Below are positions 16,143-26,102 of a stretch of DNA of 64,000 nt, piece after piece. Position 1 is the first letter of the stretch, and each line of letters begins with the position of its first letter. The stretch spans positions 62,001 to 126,000 of the forward strand of contig JACONG010000013.1 of NCBI GenBank assembly GCA_014323865.1, written 5' to 3'. Position numbers and translations under genes: made by a program. The notes below the pieces were generated by a model that worked only from the letters and a program-made list of their open reading frames with translations, made no database searches and was not told where the DNA came from. This DNA comes from Rhodospirillales bacterium. GTDB taxonomy: Bacteria > Pseudomonadota > Alphaproteobacteria > SP197.

Positions 16143-16533
16143 ATGGCAGAGCAGCAGACGGTTCGCAAGGCTGCTCACGTCAAGGTGGGCCGGCGCATCA
16201 AGATCATCAACACCCACGGCGAGGTGGTCGACACCGGGGCCTTCAATGCCGAGGACATCGCCGAATATATGGCGATGGACACCACACGCGCCTACAACCA
16301 GCGCATGTCGCCCTTGGTCGGCGACGATCTCGTCACGAACAAGCACCGACCCATCCTCAAGCTGGTGGAAGACACCTCGCCTGGCCGCCTGCGACCGCTG
16401 GCGCTGTCACCTGCTTGGAGCCGAGGACGATCACGACAACTGCGCCGACAATCTGACCTCGGGCCTGACCGGACTCGGTCTCAGTGAAACCCACACGCTG
16501 GCACCGCTGAATCTGTTCATGAACATCCTCTAG
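16143..16533 (+). pseudogene. Broken DUF1989 (urea-carboxylase-associated family) gene
   Basis: The first 80 residues ('VGRRIKIINTHGEVVDTGAF', 'RPILKLVEDTSPG') are typical of DUF1989 proteins, which accompany urea carboxylase or act in ureide and guanidine-related metabolism. A frameshift near 16385 moves the rest to another frame. There it reads 'HLLGAEDDHDNCADNL' and 'PLNLFMNI', the cysteine-containing metal-site region of the family, and then meets TAG at 16531. The final ~30 residues expected after 'NLFMNI' are gone, replaced by the DUF454 remnant. Confidence 0.75.
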
Positions 16534-16550
16534 CAGCCCGACGGCACTCT

Positions 16551-16820
16551 ATTCTGCTTGTCGCCGCCTTCACCTTTGCCAAGTCCTCGGACTGTGTGCA
16601 CGCCTGGTTTGTCGGCCATTGCGTCTTCGGCCCCCTGATCAGCGACTGGCACCGTCATGGTGCCATCGATCGCCGCGCGAATACGGTCGGGTTTCTCTCA
16701 ATGGTCGCCGTGTTCATCATTTCTCTGGCACTCGGCGGCGGCACCACCGTTTTGGTGATCCAGACCATCGCGCTGACATGCGCCGGAGCGTTCGTCTTGT
16801 CGCGTCCCGAGCCGCCATGA
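16551..16820 (+). pseudogene. N-terminally truncated DUF454 (YbaN-like) membrane protein
   Basis: The frame from 16551 reads 'LLVAAFTFAKSSD', 'WFVGHCVFGPLISDWHRHGA', 'IDRRANTVGFLSMV', then two hydrophobic segments and 'VLSRPEP'. That is the order and spacing of DUF454 inner-membrane proteins (small proteins like E. coli YbaN). The first ~35 residues with the first helix and start codon are missing. The truncation point is adjacent to the truncated DUF1989 gene, so one deletion probably removed the end of one gene and the start of the other. Confidence 0.55.
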
Positions 16821-16884: not shown

Positions 16885-17673
16885 CTACTGCGCTGCTTCC
16901 GGCTGGGCCGCTGCGGCCACTTCCTTGGGCTGGAAGATGCAGAAGATCTTGCGGACCGTGCCGACGCTGTCCCACTGGTAGATCATGCCCTTGGGCACCA
17001 TGAAGGTGTCGCCGGCCTTATAGGTCGTGGCCTGGCCGGTGCCGTCAGTGATCGTGACCTCGCCTTCCAGGATGTGCATCAGCTCGTTGCGGCCGAACGG
17101 CGCGGGTTTGGTGTGCATCTCGGTGGTGGTCCACAGGCCCACGGTCATCTGCTTGGTTGCATCCTCGAAGAAGATCTTGATGGTTTGCTCGGGCACATCG
17201 CCGATGTAGCGTGAGGTGTCCTGCTCGCCCACGGGATCAAGCGCCTGGTCGTGCGCGAAGGTGCGGACCTTCAGACCATCGGCATCCAGCGTCTCACCCG
17301 AGGGATCGTCGTGGATGACGTAGAACTTGCGGATGTCCTCGGTCTGCTCCCAGACGCACGGCGTGCCCTTGGGGATCACGAAGCTCTCGCCGGCGCACAC
17401 CGTGTCGCGGGTGCCGTCATCGTGGATCATGGTGACCGCGCCTTCGAGCACCAGCATGTACTCGTTTACGTCGTAGGGACCGGTCTTCGAGGTCATCGGC
17501 GTGCAGTGCCAGACACCACTGGTGAGCGTACCCGTCTCGTCGGTGAAGTAGTTGTGACCTGACTGTACGGGGTCGCCCGCGAGCAGCGCGTCGGCGGGGA
17601 TTTTCTCCCACTCCGGCATGCCGGTGTCGGCAGGCCCATGGGTGGAATAGGTGATGGGGGTCAGGGCGCCCAT
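16885..17673 (-). CDS. Bicupin protein ((S)-ureidoglycine aminohydrolase-like cupin)
   Basis: The protein has two cupin domains in tandem (residues ~45-125 and ~165-245). Each has the G(X)5E...G pattern: 'MLVLEGAVTMIHDDG' with 'GESFVIPKGTP', and 'MHILEGEVTITDG' with 'GDTFMVPKGM'. The cupin-3 form resembles ureidoglycine aminohydrolase and DUF861 proteins. ATG 17673 gives 262 residues and has AGAGGAAAG at the right distance; longer starts lack a ribosome site. The metal ligands are only partly conserved, so a binding or enzymatic role is open. The broken DUF1989 gene next to it would fit a former ureide-linked cluster. Confidence 0.75.
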   Translation of the reverse strand: MGALTPITYSTHGPADTGMPEWEKIPADALLAGDPVQSGHNYFTDETGTLTSGVWHCTPMTSKTGPYDVNEYMLVLEGAVTMIHDDGTRDTVCAGESFVIPKGTPCVWEQTEDIRKFYVIHDDPSGETLDADGLKVRTFAHDQALDPVGEQDTSRYIGDVPEQTIKIFFEDATKQMTVGLWTTTEMHTKPAPFGRNELMHILEGEVTITDGTGQATTYKAGDTFMVPKGMIYQWDSVGTVRKIFCIFQPKEVAAAAQPEAAQ

Positions 17674-17739: not shown

Positions 17740-18576
17740 TGACCTCCTGCTGCTTACCACGGCCACGACGATGGCGGACTTCAAAGGTCTGATCGTGCGC
17801 TCAATCAAGGCGGCCGCCCCCTACCAGATCGTGGTGATTCGCTACCTCTTTCTGGCGTTCGCGCTCTTCGCCTTCACCGCGTTGCGCAACCGCTCCGACT
17901 GCCGTATCGTCGCGACGCCTTGGGCCTGCCCGGCATCGGCAGCATCACGTTCATCCTGGCGCTGAGCCACACGACGGTCGCGCAGACCCTGCTCATCATC
18001 ACGGCGCTACCGGTGACCACGGCGATCATGGCCCGGATCGTCCTCAAGGAATCGGTCTGGCCCAGCGCCCAGTTCGCCATGGCAGGCTCCATGATCGGCA
18101 TCGTGATCATAGCCGGCAGCATCTTCGAGGGCGGCAGCCTCTAAGGATTTCTCATGGCGGTCGCGACGGTAGCGACCATGACCTACTTCGCGCTCGGACT
18201 GCGCTGGGGACGCGGCGGCGACATGACACCCGCCATAGCCTTCGCAAGCCTGGTGGCCACGTTTCTGGCGGCTTTGATCGGCACATTGCAGCCGTTCGAC
18301 GTCAACCTGCACGATTTCATCCTGCTCGTGGTCTGGGGCGCGGAACTCAGCACGGTGCTCACCGTGTTCTTCCTGCTTGCCTCATGCATCGTGCCAGGCG
18401 GCGAGATGATGCTCTTCGTCGCCATTGAGGCGGTTCCGGGGCCGCTCTGGGTCTGGCTCGCCCAAGACGAGGTCCCGACCGAGGTAACCTTCTACGGCGG
18501 CGCATTGGTGCTGGTGTCGATCATCGGCTTCGCGGTCACCGACATGCGTGCCGAACACCGGATGAACCCCGTCTGA
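17740..18576 (+). pseudogene. Broken EamA/DMT-superfamily transporter (copy 1)
   Basis: Membrane helices of a DMT permease can be followed through 'KAAAPYQIVVIRYLFLAFALF' in part, a frameshift near 17905, and 'LALSHTTVAQTLLIITALPV' with 'ARIVLKESVWPSAQFAMAG'. There is then an in-frame TAA at 18142 followed at once by the same frame resuming ('MAVATVATMTYFALGLRW'). The second EamA half continues to 18576. About ten helices would be made if the lesions were repaired. Confidence 0.75.
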
Positions 18577-19135
18577 TGCGCGACGGCACGGCCTTCGGCC
18601 TGGTTCTCATTGCGCGGTCGATGTCGAGCTTCAACGGGCTCTTTATGCGCTCCTTCAACGGACATGACCGACTGGCAGATCGTCTTCTGGCACCATCTGC
18701 TGCTCGGTATTGCGCTGTCGTTGGGCCTCGCCGTGCACTACCGCTCACGGCTGGGCGGCGTGCTCCGCCACATGGGCTGGGGCGGGATTCTGGGTGGTGT
18801 CGCCTTCGGTCCTCAGTACGTTCCTGGTGACGCTGGCGCTTCACAACGCGCCGGTCGCCGATGTCATGTTCGTGCTGATCCGTCGTGCCGTTCATGACCG
18901 CCGTTCTCGGCCGGGTCGTGCTGCGTGAGACGGTCTATCAGTTCACCTGGTTCGCCATGGCAGGTGCGCTCACGGGAATCGCCGTGATGGTCGTGGGCAA
19001 CTTGGGCGGCGGCAATCTCGTGGGCACGGCCATAGCGAGGTGCCGACAGACCATTCCCTCATCAGCAGCGTCATCGTGATCGCCTCGACCATCGCGCGCG
19101 CCTTCGCACGCATCCGACAGGAACGGAGAGCCTAG
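18576..19135 (+). pseudogene. Broken EamA/DMT-superfamily transporter (copy 2)
   Basis: This starts where copy 1 stops. 'FGLVLIARSMSSFNGLFMRS' in part, 'WQIVFWHHLLLGIALSLGL', 'TLALHNAPVADVMFVL' and 'LGRVVLRETVYQFTWFAMAG' are successive DMT helices but lie in three frames, with lesions near 18665, 18810 and 18890. The second EamA half is almost completely deleted. It is probably an ancient duplicate or partner of copy 1, and both are non-functional. Confidence 0.7.
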
Positions 19136-20259
19136 CCCGCGCTGTCGAAGGTCACGGTGGCTTCGGCCTCGACCGCATACCAGTCGATCGCGATGCCGAG
19201 ACCCGGTCCGTCCGGCGCCGCGACACAGCCATGGGCATCGATTGCGAGCGGGTTGGTGATGTGGACGTCGTAAGGTTCCGACGGTGCCGGCTGTTCGAAC
19301 CATGTCGCGCCGGGCATGCCAAGCATGACGTGCAGATTCGCGAACTGGGCCGGTGCGAAACCATAAGACTGGATTTCTACGGGCACCTCATAGGCGCGGG
19401 CGAGCCCCATGGCCTTGATCGCGTTGCTGATGCCGCCCGAGTTGCTGGCATCGAAGCGCAGGCGTGACCAGGCCTTGCATGCGAGCCCCTCGCGCCAGGC
19501 ATTGACTCCCATCAGGATGTTGCCGGCACAGAGGATGTCGACGTCAACCGCCTGGTTGAGCTCGACATAGGCGTCAAGGTCGGTGTCGGTCAGAGGCGCC
19601 TCGAACCAGTCGAAGGGTCCGCGGCTCATGGCTTCACCAATGCGCAGCGCCTCGTCGAAGGTACAGCACTGCTCGTGATCGGTCATGAAGCGGACACGGC
19701 CGTCGCCATAGATCTCGGTGATCAACGCGATCAGTTCGAGATCAACCCCGACATCGGTGTTCATGTGGAACTTGATCGCCGGATAGCCAATGGCGATGAA
19801 GCGCCTGGCCGCATCGAGATACTCCTCAATGGTCAGGAACGCCTCGGTGCTGGCGTAGGTCGGGATACGCTCGCGGTATCCTCCCAGAAGGCGCCAGAGC
19901 GGCGTTCCGACCGACTGCGCGTAGCCGTCCCACATCGCACAATCGAGGATCGAGAGGCTTTTCCACGGCCCGGGGCACGCTTCGTCCAGGAGTTCGTCGG
20001 TCAACACGGAACGGTTGGCCGTATCGAAACCCAGGACACGGTCGGCGATCGCCTCGATTTCGGCCGCGACGACCGGCTCCGTACCCAACCGCCCGCTCGT
20101 CGACGACCCGATCCCCTCGACGCCGTTGGCGAGTGTCAGGCGAAGGAACTCGATGGTGAGATGTTCTAGCGGATCGCGTCCCGTGAAGCGGATCGGGGGT
20201 GTCGCAGCGGGTTCGCAGGCATAGGCCCGGATGCGGGAAATGGTTGTGTCATGGGTCAC
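19132..20259 (-). CDS. Mandelate racemase/muconate lactonizing (enolase-superfamily) enzyme
   Basis: The 375-residue enzyme has an N-terminal capping domain (1-~125) and a TIM-barrel domain. Barrel motifs: 'YPAIKFHMNTD' (second strand, K-x-H instead of the usual K-x-K), 'FMTDHEQ' (first metal ligand Asp), 'WFEAPL' (second ligand Glu), and 'LCAGN' where the third ligand is Asn rather than Glu/Asp. The sixth strand reads 'RLRFDASNSGG'. Members dehydrate, epimerise or racemise carboxylates by alpha-proton abstraction. It is the second gene of an operon with a close paralogue (three bases apart). Context suggests a betaine, amino acid or sugar acid substrate, but the sequence does not decide. Confidence 0.85.
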   Translation of the reverse strand: MTHDTTISRIRAYACEPAATPPIRFTGRDPLEHLTIEFLRLTLANGVEGIGSSTSGRLGTEPVVAAEIEAIADRVLGFDTANRSVLTDELLDEACPGPWKSLSILDCAMWDGYAQSVGTPLWRLLGGYRERIPTYASTEAFLTIEEYLDAARRFIAIGYPAIKFHMNTDVGVDLELIALITEIYGDGRVRFMTDHEQCCTFDEALRIGEAMSRGPFDWFEAPLTDTDLDAYVELNQAVDVDILCAGNILMGVNAWREGLACKAWSRLRFDASNSGGISNAIKAMGLARAYEVPVEIQSYGFAPAQFANLHVMLGMPGATWFEQPAPSEPYDVHITNPLAIDAHGCVAAPDGPGLGIAIDWYAVEAEATVTFDSAG

Positions 20260-20262
20260 GGG

Positions 20263-21399
20263 TCAGTGCCCCGCATCGAAGTTGAGGAACGCGTCGGCTG
20301 CGATCCTGTCCCAGTCGGGAACGGCGCCAAGACCCGGTCCCAACGGCGCGTGAACCAGGCCCTCGGCATCGATCACCGGCAGGTCACCGAGTTCGTCGCT
20401 GTAGTCCTGCTCGGGTACCGGTTGCTCGAACCAGCCGCAGGTGCCAACGCCAAGCGCAAGGTGCAGCGCGGCAAGCTTGCGTCCCCCATAACCGTACGAC
20501 TGCAGTTCCACCGTGGTGCCATGAGCCCTGGCCAAGGCCATCGCGCGAACGGATGCGCCAATACCGCCGTTGTGGGTCGGACCCGTGCGGACCATGTCCC
20601 ACGAACCGGTCTCCAGACCGTCCCGCAGGGACGCAAGATCGGTCAACGTGTTGCCCGCCGGAATGATCGGCACGTTCACCGCGCGGCGCAGTTCGGCATA
20701 GGCCACCAGATCCTCATCGGGTAGCGGTGCCTCCAACCAGTGAAAGCCCAGTTCGGCCAGCCTGCGGCCCACCCGGACGGCCGTCCTGAGGTCGTAGCGC
20801 TGCTCGACATCCAGCATGAAGCCGATACGCTCGCCATGGGCCGCATGCACGGCCTCGACCATCGCAAGATCCCAGTCAGGATCGCAGCGTGTGTGAAGCT
20901 TCACGGCGCGGTAGCTGCGATCGGCGAGGTCACCAACAAAGGCGACATAGTCCTCAATCTCGGCCAGCACCGGTGTGCTGACGTAGGCCCGGATCGCCGC
21001 GTTCGCCCCCCCCAGAAGACGCCAGAGCGGTTCGCCGTTGGCGCGAGCCGCCAGATCCCACAGGGCGATGTCGATCAGGGATTCCGCCCGTTTGCGCGGA
21101 TCGTCGCAGCGCCGCAGCAGTCGTTCGTTCACCGCCTCCCGCTCCAGGGCCGAGGCTCCCAGGATCTGCGGGGCAATCTCATGCAGACGATCGGCGAGGT
21201 CACGCCCCGGAGCGTTATCCTCGGCAGGTGCATGCGACGTGTTCGAGGACCATCCCTCCAGTCCGTTCGCCGCGGTCAGGCGCAGGGTGTTGTCGGTGAC
21301 ACGCACGAAACCTTCCTGGCCGGTCCATCGGTAGGGCGGCGTGGTGGCGGGTGCAGTCGCATAGATGCGCACCCGAACGATGTCGAGATCACGGGACAA
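20263..21399 (-). CDS. Mandelate racemase/muconate lactonizing enzyme, paralogue of the neighbouring gene
   Basis: It has the same two-domain plan as the downstream gene: 'YRAVKLHTRCD' (K-x-H), 'FMLDVEQ', 'WLEAPLPDEDL', 'IPAGNT' (Asn in the third-ligand place) and 'THNGGI'. I take TTG at 21399 as the start (378 residues). From there the first 14 residues align without gaps with the start of the paralogue, and the alternative upstream ATG at 21471 would overlap the enoyl-CoA hydratase remnant by 65 bases. The paralogues are clearly diverged, so a two-step pathway or two substrates is more likely than simple redundancy. Confidence 0.8.
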   Translation of the reverse strand: MSRDLDIVRVRIYATAPATTPPYRWTGQEGFVRVTDNTLRLTAANGLEGWSSNTSHAPAEDNAPGRDLADRLHEIAPQILGASALEREAVNERLLRRCDDPRKRAESLIDIALWDLAARANGEPLWRLLGGANAAIRAYVSTPVLAEIEDYVAFVGDLADRSYRAVKLHTRCDPDWDLAMVEAVHAAHGERIGFMLDVEQRYDLRTAVRVGRRLAELGFHWLEAPLPDEDLVAYAELRRAVNVPIIPAGNTLTDLASLRDGLETGSWDMVRTGPTHNGGIGASVRAMALARAHGTTVELQSYGYGGRKLAALHLALGVGTCGWFEQPVPEQDYSDELGDLPVIDAEGLVHAPLGPGLGAVPDWDRIAADAFLNFDAGH

Positions 21400-21406
21400 G
21401 GTGGCG

Positions 21407-21783
21407 TTACTTGCCTTTGAAATTGGGCACGGGTTGATCGGCGAAGGCGCGAGCGTCCGCCATGAAGTCATCGGAGTAGAGCATCTTCTCGTAGATCGGC
21501 AAGACGCTGCAGCCGTCTCCCCCGCCTCGATGGCCCATCACGTAACATCGAAGGCCTCTTCCAGCGGCAAGTGCATCATCGCAACCAGCGCCTCCTTGAG
21601 GGGCCTGCAAGGCGAGTGGCGCACAATCTGCGATGGCATCGGCCAAGGCGCGTGCCTTGTCGACCAGCTGATCGGCCGGCACGACGGCGTGGACCAGTCC
21701 CCGGTGCTTGGCCTCCGCGGCACCCATGCGCCGGCCGGTCAGGAAAAGTTCCATCGCCACATTATAAGAAGCCATCCATCGGG
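21407..21783 (-). pseudogene. Remnant of an enoyl-CoA hydratase/isomerase gene
   Basis: The segment keeps the region after the active site: 'NVAMELFLTGRRMGAAEA', 'GLVHAVVPADQL', then, after a frame change, 'EALVAMMHLPLEEAFD'. Back in frame it reads 'LPIYEKMLYSDDFM' and a crotonase-type end 'PNFKGK'. The N-terminal ~110 residues with the oxyanion-hole loops are missing, and two frameshifts are visible (near 21600 and 21510). It ends eight bases before the TTG of the MR/MLE gene. Confidence 0.75.
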
Positions 21784-21915: not shown

Positions 21916-22878
21916 ATGAGTTTGAAGAAGACGTTTCTGTCTGCGGTAGCGGTCGGTACGCTGGCTCTTGGCGCAGTTTCGGCGCAGAGCGCCGACAATG
22001 ACGAGCCGATCCGGCTCGCGATGAACGAATGGACCGGTCAGCACATCTCGACGATGGTTGCGGGCGAGGTTCTCAAGCGCATGGGCTACAACGTCGAGTA
22101 TGTGACCGCGGGTTACAATCCGCAGATTACGGCGATCGCCGACGGCGACCTTCACGCCACACTCGAAATCTGGAGTTCGAACATCGGCGAAGGCTGGGAC
22201 GAGCACTTCGATTCCGGTGCCGTTGAGATCGTGGCTCTGTCCGGTCTGAAGCCGCAGGAAACCTGGTATGTTCCGGCTTACGTCATGGATCAGTGCCCTG
22301 GCCTGAAAAACAGCTGGGAAGCGCTGAACGATTGCGCCGACATGTTCGCCACGCCTGAGACGCTGCCGTCGGGCCGCTTCCTCGACTATCCCGCCGACTG
22401 GGGCGACAAGAATGCGCCGCGCATCGCGGCCCTGGGCCTTGACTTCGTGAACGTCCGCTCCGGCGGCGAGGGTGCCATCATCGCCGAGATCAAGTCGGCC
22501 TATGAGCGTGAAGCCCCGCTGCTCGCCATGTTCTGGGAGCCGCATTGGATTCACGCCCAGTACGACCTGGTGCGCGTGATGCTGCCCGAGTACTTCGAAG
22601 GCTGCGAGACCGATGCGTCGCTCGGCATCAATCCCGACATGACCCATGACTGCGACTGGTCCGGTGCAGAGATCTGGAAGGTCGCCAATGCTGCGCTGAA
22701 GAACAGCCATCCGCAGGCCTGGGGCCTCATCAAGGCCTACTCGATCACCAACCTCGAGCAGGCCCAGATGATGTCGGAGATTGACGACAAGGGTCGTGAT
22801 CTCGTCGAGGTCGTGAACGAGTGGCTCGACAACAACCCTGACAAGGTTCAGGCGTGGATGGATCAGGCCACGATGTAA
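21916..22878 (+). CDS. Glycine betaine/proline-type ABC substrate-binding protein (OpuAC/ProX family)
   Basis: The 320-residue periplasmic protein has a clear signal peptide ('LSAVAVGTLALGAVSAQSA', cut near residue 25). OpuAC-domain features are 'LAMNEWTGQHISTMVAGEVL' in part, 'GYNVEYVTAGY', 'DLHATLEIWSSN', and 'LLAMFWEPHWIHAQYDL' in part, where conserved Trp residues would form the aromatic cage that holds a quaternary ammonium group. ATG 21916 has GGAG at 21904 and gives a proper signal peptide. No permease or ATPase gene adjoins, so it must work with a transporter encoded elsewhere. It has its own promoter and terminator. Confidence 0.9.
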   Translation: MSLKKTFLSAVAVGTLALGAVSAQSADNDEPIRLAMNEWTGQHISTMVAGEVLKRMGYNVEYVTAGYNPQITAIADGDLHATLEIWSSNIGEGWDEHFDSGAVEIVALSGLKPQETWYVPAYVMDQCPGLKNSWEALNDCADMFATPETLPSGRFLDYPADWGDKNAPRIAALGLDFVNVRSGGEGAIIAEIKSAYEREAPLLAMFWEPHWIHAQYDLVRVMLPEYFEGCETDASLGINPDMTHDCDWSGAEIWKVANAALKNSHPQAWGLIKAYSITNLEQAQMMSEIDDKGRDLVEVVNEWLDNNPDKVQAWMDQATM

Positions 22879-22899
22879 TCCCTTCCGGGATACGGTCCC

Positions 22900-22937
22900 G
22901 AAAGGCTGGGCGGCAACGTCTGGCCTTTCTTCTTCAA
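22900..22937 (+). terminator. Rho-independent terminator after the betaine-binding-protein gene
   Basis: GAAAGGC (22900-22906) pairs with GCCTTTC (22923-22929) across a 16-base loop and is followed by TTCTTCAATTCT. It begins 22 bases after the stop codon. Confidence 0.6.
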
Positions 22938-22940
22938 TTC

Positions 22941-23051
22941 TCATGCCGGACAAGGCTCGCAACGCGAGCCGCCGATCCGGGACCCCGAGAGACGTACGAT
23001 GACCTGTCGATGTCCCGGCTTTTCGCCCTGCGGGCTCCGGCCGGGATGACA
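22941..23051 (-). repeat. Dispersed intergenic repeat, copy A
   Basis: Read on the minus strand this starts TTGTCATCCCGGCCGGAGC, continues with AGCCGGGAC and CGACAGG, and ends with a CGGGGTCCCGGAT-like arm. A second related copy lies at 59841-59938 on the plus strand with the same order of blocks. Both copies lie between convergent or tail-to-tail genes. The element has internal self-complementary arms and no coding capacity. Confidence 0.65.
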
Positions 23052-23067
23052 AGACAGCTGGAGTGCC

Positions 23068-25143
23068 TCACGGCAGCGCGAACTCGGGCGATAGTTCGGT
23101 CAGTTCGCGCTTGTAGGGGATTTCCTTGGGCTCGGTGCCGAGCTCGCGGGCGAAGCGGTGGCCTTCGTAGACCGCCGCGGCGATCGTCGCCGGCCCGTGG
23201 CAGTCGCCGATGCGATGGATCGACGCCACGCCTGCGTCCGCAAGCTTTTCGGCATCACCTGCCAGCGCATCGTAGAGAGCGCTGACCGGAACACGCGACG
23301 TCACCATCACGATGGCAGCGGCATCGACCGTGCGCGTCCGCTCTGTGAAGGCGCAGGCCAGCGTCACCGTGTTGCCGTCGACCCGGCTGAGCTTGTGGCT
23401 CACGGCGAGCTCGACATCAAGATCGATCATGCGCGCCTGAATGCGCGCCTGTTCGAGCGTGTAGCTGGTCCAGGACGAGACCAGGGAGTCAGGCGTCACC
23501 AGCATCACATCAAGCCCGTCGCCGCGCAGCTTCTCGGCCAGCACGCCACCCATGTAGTAGTGGTCGTCGTCATAGATGACGACCGGGTCCTGCGGCACGA
23601 CACCGTCCATGATGTCATCGGGCGTCAGCACGTTTGCATCGGCCAGCCCGGGGATCGGAAACTGGTGCGCACGGCCATAGGCGTCGCCGCGCCAGCGCGC
23701 GCCCGTCGCGATCGCGATGCGCTTGGCGCCGAACTCCAAGACCTGTTCAGCCGTCAGGCGACTGGCCGGAAAGACCTCCACATTGCCCTTCTGCCGGATC
23801 TGGTGGACGCGGTAGTCGCGCACTCGGCCCCAGGCAGAGAGCCCCGGCAGACCTGCCTCGCGTGTCACACGGCCACCCAGTTCCTCTTCGGCTTCCGCCA
23901 GCGTGACGTTGTAGCCGCGTTCGGCGGCGGCCCGGGCGGCTTCGAGTCCTGCCGGGCCTGCGCCGACGATCAGCACGGAGTCGTCGTCCGCCTTCGGCGC
24001 AATCCGTTCGGGGTGCCAGCCCTTGCGCCACTCCTCGCCCTTGGTCGGGTTCTGGGTACAGCGCATCGGCGCCAGAAGGCCGTCCCAACCGACACAGATG
24101 TTGCAGCCGATGCACTCCCGGATGTCCTCGATCCGGCCTTCCTCAATCTTCCTGGGCAAGAACGGGTCGGCGATTGATGGGCGGGCCGCACCGATCATGT
24201 CGAGCACCCCGTTCTTGACCAGCGAGACCATGCGGTCCGGCGTGGTATAACGCCCGACAGCCACGACCGGTTTCGTCGTCACCTGTTTCACGAAGCTGAT
24301 GAACGGCTCCTGGAAACCCTCTTCGGCAAACCGACTTGTGACGCTGTCGTTCTCCCACTCGGCGACATTGACGTCCCAGAGATCGGGCAGTTCGGCCAGC
24401 ATCTCGACGATCTCTCGGCCTTCCTTGTCGAACTCCAGGCCCCCGGCGCCGCGCAGCTCATCGACCGCGAACCGCACCACCACGCCCATTGTGTCACCCA
24501 CCGCCTCCTTGGCGTCCTCGATCAATTCGCGGAACAGGCGAACGCGGTTCTCGAGGCTACCGCCATACTCGTCGGTCCGCTGATTGTAGCGCGGCAGCAT
24601 GAACTGGCCAGCGAGCGACAAATTGTGCGCGGCGTAACAGCAGACGATGTCGAACCCTGCCATCTTCGAACGCTTCACGGCATCGAGATGCCAGCGCCGA
24701 TAGTCGCGGATGTCCTGCTTGTCCATGGCACGGCACTGCAGCGGATTGTTGCCGACCACGGGCATGTGCGACGGGAAGATCGGCACCTCGCGACTGTAGG
24801 CGTTGGCGACGAACTTGCCGTTGTGGGTTGGTTCGATCAGGGCGAGCGCGCCGTGCTCATGAACGGCATCACACATACGAGCGAGATAAGGGATGTCCTG
24901 GTCAGACCACAGGCGGCCCTCAGTCGCGCCGGTGATATCGGAAGTGGGGTGGATGTCGATCTGCTCGGTCGACACCACCGCCCAGCCGCCCTCGGCCTTG
25001 ACGCCGCGCATCGCTGCCATGCTGGACGGGAAGGTGCGGCCCATTCCGTTGCAGTGGGGCACCTGGTAGAATCGGTTCTTCGCCGTGACGGGCCCGATCT
25101 GAACGGGCTCGAACAAGATGTCGTAGCGGGGGTCGCGGGCCAT
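23068..25143 (-). CDS. Trimethylamine-dehydrogenase-like 4Fe-4S flavoprotein (amine or N-methyl dehydrogenase/demethylase)
   Basis: The 691-residue enzyme follows the TMADH plan: an FMN-binding TIM barrel (1-~340), an iron-sulfur loop 'CIGCNIC' plus a fourth Cys in 'PMRC' (about 343-362), and a Rossmann domain starting 'VLIVGAGPAGLEAARAA'. The opening 'ARDPRYDILFEPVQIG' and 'NRFYQVPHC' match TMADH closely, and Cys31 is the residue that covalently holds FMN. The catalytic pair equivalent to Tyr169/His172 is kept ('CYAAH'), as are Trp264 and Asp267 ('EWENDS'). The Tyr60 of the trimethylammonium bowl is Gln ('STEQID'), so trimethylamine is unlikely to be the substrate. Electrons probably go to an ETF. 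Confidence 0.85.
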   Translation of the reverse strand: MARDPRYDILFEPVQIGPVTAKNRFYQVPHCNGMGRTFPSSMAAMRGVKAEGGWAVVSTEQIDIHPTSDITGATEGRLWSDQDIPYLARMCDAVHEHGALALIEPTHNGKFVANAYSREVPIFPSHMPVVGNNPLQCRAMDKQDIRDYRRWHLDAVKRSKMAGFDIVCCYAAHNLSLAGQFMLPRYNQRTDEYGGSLENRVRLFRELIEDAKEAVGDTMGVVVRFAVDELRGAGGLEFDKEGREIVEMLAELPDLWDVNVAEWENDSVTSRFAEEGFQEPFISFVKQVTTKPVVAVGRYTTPDRMVSLVKNGVLDMIGAARPSIADPFLPRKIEEGRIEDIRECIGCNICVGWDGLLAPMRCTQNPTKGEEWRKGWHPERIAPKADDDSVLIVGAGPAGLEAARAAAERGYNVTLAEAEEELGGRVTREAGLPGLSAWGRVRDYRVHQIRQKGNVEVFPASRLTAEQVLEFGAKRIAIATGARWRGDAYGRAHQFPIPGLADANVLTPDDIMDGVVPQDPVVIYDDDHYYMGGVLAEKLRGDGLDVMLVTPDSLVSSWTSYTLEQARIQARMIDLDVELAVSHKLSRVDGNTVTLACAFTERTRTVDAAAIVMVTSRVPVSALYDALAGDAEKLADAGVASIHRIGDCHGPATIAAAVYEGHRFARELGTEPKEIPYKRELTELSPEFALP

Positions 25144-25208: not shown

Positions 25209-26102
25209 TCAGGCAACTTGGCACAACCAGTTACGGAATGCTGCCAGAGTCGGTTTGCCGATCCGATCATCGCGATAGACGAGGTAGTAGGAGAACGGGT
25301 GCCGGACGCTCGCGGCGAAGGGACGGACAAGACGGCCGTCGTCGAGGTCACGCGCGGCCAGTTCGAGATAACCCATCGCCAGCCCGACGCCGTCGATCGC
25401 CGCCTGAAAGGCGAGGTTCGGATCGCGGAACGACAGTCCGGGGAGGTCGGTGGGTACCGTGACCCCCTGTGCCTCCAGCCACCAGCGCCACTCTTCGCCC
25501 AGGTCGTGACCGGCGATGTCGGCATGGATCAGCGTCTGGCTGAGGAGATCACCGGCGTCGGGTTCAGACCCCAGGCGTTGGGCGACATCGAGCCGACACA
25601 CGGGGCTGAGCGTGATCGGCCGCACCAGCTCTGCTTCAAGGCCGGGCCAGGGCGGAATGCCGCTGCGGATTGCCACATCGGCGGCGAGCCCGGCGGGCTC
25701 GACAAAACTCAGGGTCGGGTCCAAGTGAACCGGTGCCGTGGGCTCCTGCCGCGACCAGTCGGCCAGGTGCGGGATCAACCACTTGGCCGCGAAAGTCGGC
25801 GTGGTCGTGACCTTGATCGCGGTGCCGTCGGGCGGCCCGGCGAGCCCGTCGAGCGTGGTGCCGATGCAGTCGAAGGCATCACCCAGAACCGGCAGGAGCG
25901 TCGCACCGGCCTCGGTCAAAGAAACCCCACGGTTGGTGCGCACAAACAGCGCGTGGCCCAGCGTCTCCTCAAGTCGCCGGATCTGATGGCTGATGGCGCT
26001 GTGCGTGACGTGCAGTTCCTCTGCAGCACGCGAGAAGCTGAGATGGCGTGCCGCGGCCTCGAAGGTGCGAAGGGCGTTGAGATGGAGGGCGCTGCGGTTC
26101 AT
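25209..26102 (-). CDS. LysR-family transcriptional regulator (GcvA-like)
   Basis: The 297-residue protein has an N-terminal winged helix, 'LHLNALRTFEAAARHLSFSRAAEELHVTHSAISHQIRRLE' in part, in the 'F.AAAR..S...AA..L..T..A.S.QI' form of GcvA/AmpR-like LysR proteins. A periplasmic-binding-like effector domain follows from residue ~95. It is divergent from the Rieske operon, with 84 bases between the starts that hold a LysR-type dyad, so it most likely controls that operon and perhaps the TMADH-like gene 65 bases downstream. The effector is unknown. Confidence 0.9.
   Translation of the reverse strand: MNRSALHLNALRTFEAAARHLSFSRAAEELHVTHSAISHQIRRLEETLGHALFVRTNRGVSLTEAGATLLPVLGDAFDCIGTTLDGLAGPPDGTAIKVTTTPTFAAKWLIPHLADWSRQEPTAPVHLDPTLSFVEPAGLAADVAIRSGIPPWPGLEAELVRPITLSPVCRLDVAQRLGSEPDAGDLLSQTLIHADIAGHDLGEEWRWWLEAQGVTVPTDLPGLSFRDPNLAFQAAIDGVGLAMGYLELAARDLDDGRLVRPFAASVRHPFSYYLVYRDDRIGKPTLAAFRNWLCQVA

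Follow-up and report, generated by a model that had tools for sequence, protein, structure and literature searches.

Paired enolase-superfamily paralogues of a Rhodospirillales bacterium belong to a clade marked by loss of the third acidic metal ligand together with the strand-7 histidine

We analysed a 64,000-nucleotide stretch of DNA from a Rhodospirillales bacterium (assembly GCA_014323865.1, contig JACONG010000013.1, positions 62,001 to 126,000 of the forward strand), hereafter the window, in which two adjacent minus-strand genes, lying nearly end to end, encode paralogous MR/MLE-type proteins of the enolase superfamily. The two proteins, A and B (together the twins), share 39% identity (BLASTP) and both have the N-terminal capping and C-terminal barrel domains of the superfamily, with MR_MLE_N (PF02746) and MR_MLE_C (PF13378) each exceeding the Pfam cut-offs. 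The longest open reading frame of B opens at 21471, within the remnant of an upstream crotonase gene; we place the start of B at the TTG at 21399 and number its residues from 21402, one codon before that TTG. The two genes and the active-site positions discussed below are as follows.

19132..20259, minus strand: protein A, MR/MLE-type enolase-superfamily enzyme, 375 amino acids, GTG start
20263..21399, minus strand: protein B, paralogue of A, 378 amino acids, TTG start at 21399
19765..19773, minus strand: A K163-F164-H165, end of barrel strand 2
20893..20901, minus strand: B K168-L169-H170
19519..19524, minus strand: A G246-N247, after barrel strand 5, site of the expected Glu ligand (N247 at 19519-19521)
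20650..20655, minus strand: B G250-N251 (N251 at 20650-20652)
19366..19371, minus strand: A Q297-S298, strand 7 (His at 297 in 24/24 rows of the sister clade described below)

Common to both proteins, in A numbering, are D194, E196, E220, R268, E295, Q297-S298 and E322, which in B are D198, E200, E224, R272, E299, Q301-S302 and E326. Two of the three acidic ligands expected on strands 3, 4 and 5 are there (D194 and E220), while positions 246 and 247 are non-acidic in A and B alike. The strand-2 lysine of the mandelate racemase subgroup is present (K163 in A, K168 in B), with His in place of the second Lys of the K-x-K motif. The strand-7 His is replaced by Gln in both proteins (Q297 in A, Q301 in B), and the strand-6 Asp is found in A only (D270), its equivalent in B being Gly (G274). 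These last two changes were overlooked by an initial annotation of the DNA, which had described K-F-H (A) and K-L-H (B) on strand 2 and an 'AGN' at the third ligand, and had taken such changes in two diverged paralogues to indicate a distinct subgroup with altered acid/base chemistry rather than random decay. Both strand-2 motifs are indeed present.

A tree of 79 rows placed the twins in a clade of 42, which we call the 'GN' clade, next to a sister clade of 24; the other 13 rows included six E. coli yardsticks. SH-aLRT (approximate likelihood-ratio test) support was 99 for the 'GN' clade, 86 for the sister clade and 99 for both together; since this was a quick tree without bootstrap, the support for the sister clade is only moderate. 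The 320-residue filter applied for the tree removed no row (79/79 kept), identical cores had been merged, and one row set had additionally lost matches below 60 bits or spanning fewer than 250 residues. A scan of genome contigs with a single protein as probe found four loci, and the wider sampling came from searches of genome samples. A and B show the combination typical of this one branch: K-x-H, E-A-P, G-N and a Ser after the lost His. K163 is invariant (42/42 'GN' rows, 24/24 sister rows) and H165 nearly so (40/42 and 23/24), and D194, E220 and E322 are found in 41, 42 and 42 of the 42 'GN' rows, respectively. At column 246, Glu occurs in 24/24 sister rows but in 0/42 'GN' rows, all of which have Gly; column 247 is Asn in 41/42 'GN' rows and in 0/24 sister rows; and column 297 is His in every one of the 24 sister rows versus none of the 42 'GN' rows, where 36 have Gln. 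What marks the clade of the twins is that both the third acidic ligand and the strand-7 His have been lost.

K-x-H was considered as a hallmark of the twins and rejected, since the sister clade carries it too. Of seven more plasmid-borne relatives (Streptomyces, Embleya, Paenibacillus, Neorhizobium, Polaromonas, Salipiger), six also have the motif with the Glu retained; this sample comprised six of the 13 records not yet in the set, with other Streptomyces and Embleya records left out. As K-x-H belongs to this wider group, it cannot by itself explain the twins. Furthermore, the A group and the B group are sisters within the family of the window (together 99), so that the changes they share were inherited from one ancestor and do not amount to the independent evidence that had been read into them. 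Tree, profile and fold match together identify A and B as products of a duplication within an old clade that falls on the side of mandelate racemase in the enolase superfamily; the fold and the superfamily are known, and this little-studied branch has one solved member, PDB 4jhm.

AlphaFold2 models, folded with alignments that then gathered 40 of the 61 'GN' and sister rows, had a mean pLDDT (predicted local distance difference test score) of 95.9 for A and 95.7 for B (379 residues, from 21402). In the A model D194 and E220 end strands 3 and 4, and H165 ends strand 2. Its best solved match was 4jhm, a putative MR/MLE protein from Pseudovibrio sp. (Z 53.0, root-mean-square deviation 1.7, 372 residues; next Z 44.7), whose entry title assigns no function. 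We assigned 4jhm, which was not among the tree rows, to the 'GN' clade by profile (hmmsearch E 6e-151, the next entry being 1rvk at 4.1e-62). The Pseudovibrio protein shows 32% identity to A across the fold alignment and shares K-L-H, H-G-N, E-I-Q-S and E-A-P with the twins, but has D-T-A where they have D-x-E. The Agrobacterium tumefaciens structures 1rvk and 4hcd-4hch-4hcl-4mmw likewise have K-L-H on strand 2 and no gap between strands 4 and 6 in the hidden Markov model alignment; unlike the twins, 1rvk and 4hcd have Glu (G-P-E-S) opposite the Gly, and His on strand 7. Mandelate racemase (1mns) has the same fold as the A model (Z 41.3).

The sequences do not settle whether Asn247 stands in the place of the third ligand. 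The stretch from the strand-4 Glu to the strand-6 Arg measures 48 residues in 41/41 'GN' and 24/24 sister rows, and in this ungapped register the sister Glu aligns with Gly246, not Asn247. The same pairing was obtained by hhalign of the 'GN' against the sister profile (the compared profiles held 27/42 'GN', 15/24 sister and 7/13 other rows) and by HMMER alignment with 1rvk, and the profile of the sister clade pairs its Glu with the Glu of canonical members. When the 'GN' clade itself is aligned with canonical members (one residue shorter), a gap is opened and Asn247 pairs with Glu; the MAFFT alignment likewise pairs the two. In E. coli RhmD the spacing is also 48, yet its Glu lies two columns after 246, which shows that the strand-5 Glu has no fixed position and weakens any reading based on spacing alone. 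E. coli glucarate dehydratase GudD uses Asn289 as its third metal ligand and resembles the twins in having Asn instead of Glu near the end of strand 5, but differs in its spacing and in retaining K-x-K and the strand-7 His, neither of which the twins have. Together, the shifted Glu of RhmD and the Asn of GudD indicate that the strand-5 ligand can shift, and the nearly invariant Asn247 may still reach the metal. Thus the A-G-N reported at first is present in both twins, while its Asn is unconfirmed as occupant of the ligand position. Judged from sequence, no acidic residue remains at 246/247 whichever alignment is used, except for an Asp in the B copy of genome G008. That copy (L064:10246-11361), which also has K-x-R and Ala for D194, is a possible pseudoenzyme. 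As a substitute third ligand we considered E196, present in 38/42 rows, and rejected it as not general, because Ala takes its place in 4jhm and in the rows from Vibrio and G636.

The 'GN' clade evolves under purifying selection. Compared with congeners, the ratio of nonsynonymous to synonymous substitutions (dN/dS) was about 0.19-0.27 in four pairs for A and 0.14-0.22 in five pairs for B; synonymous divergence was near saturation. Two matches (E up to 1e-50) were found in 11 of 16 same-family genomes, the genome of the window included; in G014 the two lay on different contigs, one of them partial. Three congeners and one other genome in this sample had no match, and one genome had a single copy. 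Together with the support of 99 for the clade, these values bear out the initial view of a distinct subgroup as opposed to random decay.

Around the twins, the window contains the following features.

21407..21766, minus strand: remnant of a crotonobetainyl-CoA-hydratase-like crotonase (CoA, coenzyme A); residues 1-157 of the L061 homologue unmatched
16143-16551 and 17917-18989: frame-shifted DUF1989 gene and two truncated or broken EamA transporter genes
16885..17673, minus strand: EutQ-like double cupin, conserved in the cluster
21922..22878, plus strand: OpuAC-type substrate-binding protein, betaine- or trimethylamine N-oxide (TMAO)-like (family and PDB match from the L061 homologue)
23068..25143, minus strand: trimethylamine/histamine-dehydrogenase-like flavin mononucleotide (FMN) enzyme (PDB match from the L061 homologue)
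25209..26102, minus strand: LysR-type regulator (GcvA-like)

In relatives, the usual neighbours of the family are a crotonobetainyl-CoA-hydratase-like crotonase, an OpuAC-type protein, two trimethylamine dehydrogenase (TMADH)/histamine-dehydrogenase-like enzymes, double cupins, EamA and LysR. The crotonase probe matched over 272-276 of its 276 residues in eight other family loci, and L061 and other relatives have two TMADH-like genes against the one found in the window. While A and B stay open, the cluster around them is eroding in a genome of 2.8 Mb (congeners 3.5-4.5 Mb). For the L061 homologue of the OpuAC-type protein the best PDB match was 4xz6, which we take to be the TMAO-binding TmoX, and for that of the TMADH-like enzyme it was 6de6 (E 1.3e-239). 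The presence of these two genes at 21922-25143 suggests use of methylated amines by the organism. In two genomes, at L067 (11080-13017) and L069, a creatinase/ectoine-hydrolase-like M24 enzyme and a CN-hydrolase-type gene directly follow the twins.

Elsewhere in the clade, at nine loci (group f31) from small alphaproteobacterial genomes of 0.9-1.4 Mb, which are probably Pelagibacterales, the 'GN' gene comes after a TauD-type dioxygenase whose best match is TmpA (E 3.6e-52), with gamma-butyrobetaine dioxygenase next (1.7e-40). At one of the nine, the TauD-type neighbour is reduced to a fragment beside an open 'GN' gene (L105:7752-8063). Further upstream at L073, an AT-rich locus read from the list of open reading frames and not, like the others, from genes called with a codon-trained script, a protein scores above the NCBIfam cut-off for dimethylsulfoniopropionate (DMSP) demethylase. 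In Vibrio and genome G636 the gene is flanked by an FAD oxidoreductase and a BCCT transporter, the one in Vibrio being closest to the DMSP transporter DddT (E 1.3e-96) and then to CaiT (1.2e-63). Psychrobacter and Pseudomonas plasmids carry the 'GN' gene with BCCT and a second MR/MLE gene that has canonical ligands. These second genes (L119:7902-9017, L120:6851-7972) are related to PDB 3sjn, with an E of 2.3e-142 in the Pseudomonas case.

Our preferred reading, held tentatively, is that this old branch on the mandelate-racemase side consists of one-base, metal-assisted enzymes that abstract the alpha proton of a trimethylammonium- or sulfonium-type carboxylate. Mandelate racemase has K-x-K on strand 2, a third Glu ligand and a His/Asp dyad. 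With it (1mns, 1mdl) the twins share the Asp and Glu ligands, the strand-2 Lys and the strand-8 Glu; unlike it they have no second Lys, third Glu or His. Without the strand-7 His, two-base racemisation of the mandelate racemase type is unlikely, and the combination of K163 and H165 on strand 2 with the missing His fits one-base abstraction followed by beta loss. Altered acid/base chemistry, as initially proposed, is accordingly likely, with its source in the lost strand-7 His and third acidic ligand and not in the widespread K-x-H. Hydroxyproline-betaine 2-epimerase HpbD has K-x-K on strand 2 and Lys on strand 6; the twins have K-x-H, and their strand-6 segments contain no Lys.

In the mechanism that we envisage, the metal would be held by two carboxylates (D194, E220) with no acidic third at strand 5, and the third place at the metal would probably be filled by Asn247, water or the substrate. 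K163, tuned by H165, would most likely remove the alpha proton of the bound carboxylate, and the resulting intermediate would lose a beta leaving group. The substrate would bear a trimethylammonium or sulfonium group, as in compounds of the carnitine or gamma-butyrobetaine type, to judge by the gene neighbours. Beta-hydroxy acids are the normal substrate pattern of superfamily dehydratases, and in the small genomes an upstream gamma-butyrobetaine-type hydroxylase could supply one. A and B may work as two separate enzymes or as a heteromer.

Since neighbours linked to such onium compounds recur, the likeliest class of substrate is a trimethylammonium or sulfonium carboxylate. Among 31 'GN' loci, 10 have an OpuAC-type protein, the same 10 a TMADH-like enzyme, 8 a TauD resembling gamma-butyrobetaine dioxygenase or TmpA, and 4 BCCT; any of the four was found in 22/31 'GN' loci versus 0/20 sister loci, in stretches of unequal length (4.7-21 kb and 9-17 kb, respectively). 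The count left out L115, a 'GN' locus with a TauD neighbour, as well as loci with short flanks and L008/L009, which lie on the same contigs as L061/L060. Several points weigh against this substrate assignment. The probes were drawn from the 'GN' loci themselves, and many of those loci are close kin; counted by our own division into lineages, onium neighbours occur in 5 of 9, or 6 of 9 if a choline-dehydrogenase-like gene at L072 is included, which passes the NCBIfam cut-off for the choline dehydrogenase subfamily and fails that for the betA equivalog. One TauD match (L105) is a fragment. None of the four probes had a match in the lineages of L070, L071, L072 and L106-L110, nor at L063, a locus of the same genus that carries the pair. 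L106-L110 instead have a short-chain dehydrogenase/reductase (SDR) gene and an ABC transporter without an OpuAC-type protein, and L070 has a class II aldolase-like gene. The crotonase probe weakly matched 3 of the 20 sister loci (30-35% identity), and no neighbour proves a substrate.

The twins might instead be acid-sugar dehydratases of the ordinary kind, with Asn247 serving as third metal ligand in the manner of Asn289 in GudD. The alignment with the canonical profile does pair Asn247 with the ligand Glu, and the structural neighbours of the A model include 4hch, an entry titled A. tumefaciens D-glucarate dehydratase. The best NCBIfam matches, to talarate/galactarate and arabinonate dehydratases, point the same way at scores far below the cut-off (101 bits for A and 93 for B, against 500 each), and no superfamily equivalog was passed. 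Dehydratases of this subgroup use the strand-7 His, which is absent from 42/42 'GN' rows, and in alignments with the sister clade and with 1rvk it is Gly and not Asn that falls opposite the Glu. Beyond the aldolase-like gene at L070, no sugar-acid pathway was seen among annotated neighbours, for which no systematic search was made. On balance we consider this explanation rather unlikely.

We judge it unlikely as well that either twin, or both, lacks catalytic activity, for instance with A as the enzyme and B as its partner or regulator, or that the pair is being lost here. Gly replaces Asp270 in 12 rows, 11 of which are B copies, and in the B copy of G008 the motifs are K-x-R and G-D, with D194 changed to Ala; the A frame of G002 ends early, at 352 amino acids; and the neighbours in the window (crotonase, EamA, DUF1989) are decayed. 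Against this, A and B of the window are open and keep K, H, D194, E220, G-N and E322, and dN/dS against congeners is about 0.14-0.27.

A bolder version of our preferred reading, which we regard as distinctly improbable, makes the clade a CoA-independent onium-carboxylate eliminase. Here K163 would take the alpha proton, and either a beta-hydroxyl (carnitine-type) or the onium group itself would be expelled, the latter as trimethylamine or dimethyl sulfide; the lower charge of a two-carboxylate metal site would suit a cationic substrate. If true, this would be a novel route for opening compounds of the betaine, carnitine or DMSP kind, and one that occurs in small-genome alphaproteobacteria near genes for DMSP demethylase and gamma-butyrobetaine-dioxygenase-like proteins. 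Very unlikely, finally, is the view that K-x-H and an Asn in the place of the ligand are themselves what sets the subgroup and its chemistry apart: both motifs occur in A and B, but K-x-H was already weakened by its presence in 23/24 sister rows, in 6/7 plasmid-borne relatives and, with Glu and His kept, in 1rvk/4hcd, and the Asn is one position off in comparisons with the nearest relatives.

Expansions of the enolase superfamily have been reported in SAR202 (PMC6946804), and a gamma-butyrobetaine dioxygenase in an Arctic SAR11 island (PMC12421898), each as given in the excerpts of these papers. Excerpts of PMC6946804, PMC11353897, PMC12636525 and PMC12421898 do not name the motif. Among the open-access matches listed, which exclude the subscription journals where most work on the superfamily has appeared, no paper dealt with the 'GN' clade or 4jhm, and the code 4JHM had one match, a chemistry paper.

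Taken together, our results define a conserved clade without one acidic ligand and without the strand-7 His in a superfamily that serves as a standard model of many reactions evolving from a single active-site plan, and whose core is taken to include three acidic metal ligands. The clade would test how far that core bends, and the crystal structure of one of its members (4jhm) is already public. Should its substrate prove to be a betaine- or sulfonium-type carboxylate, the clade would also contribute an unassigned step to osmolyte breakdown.

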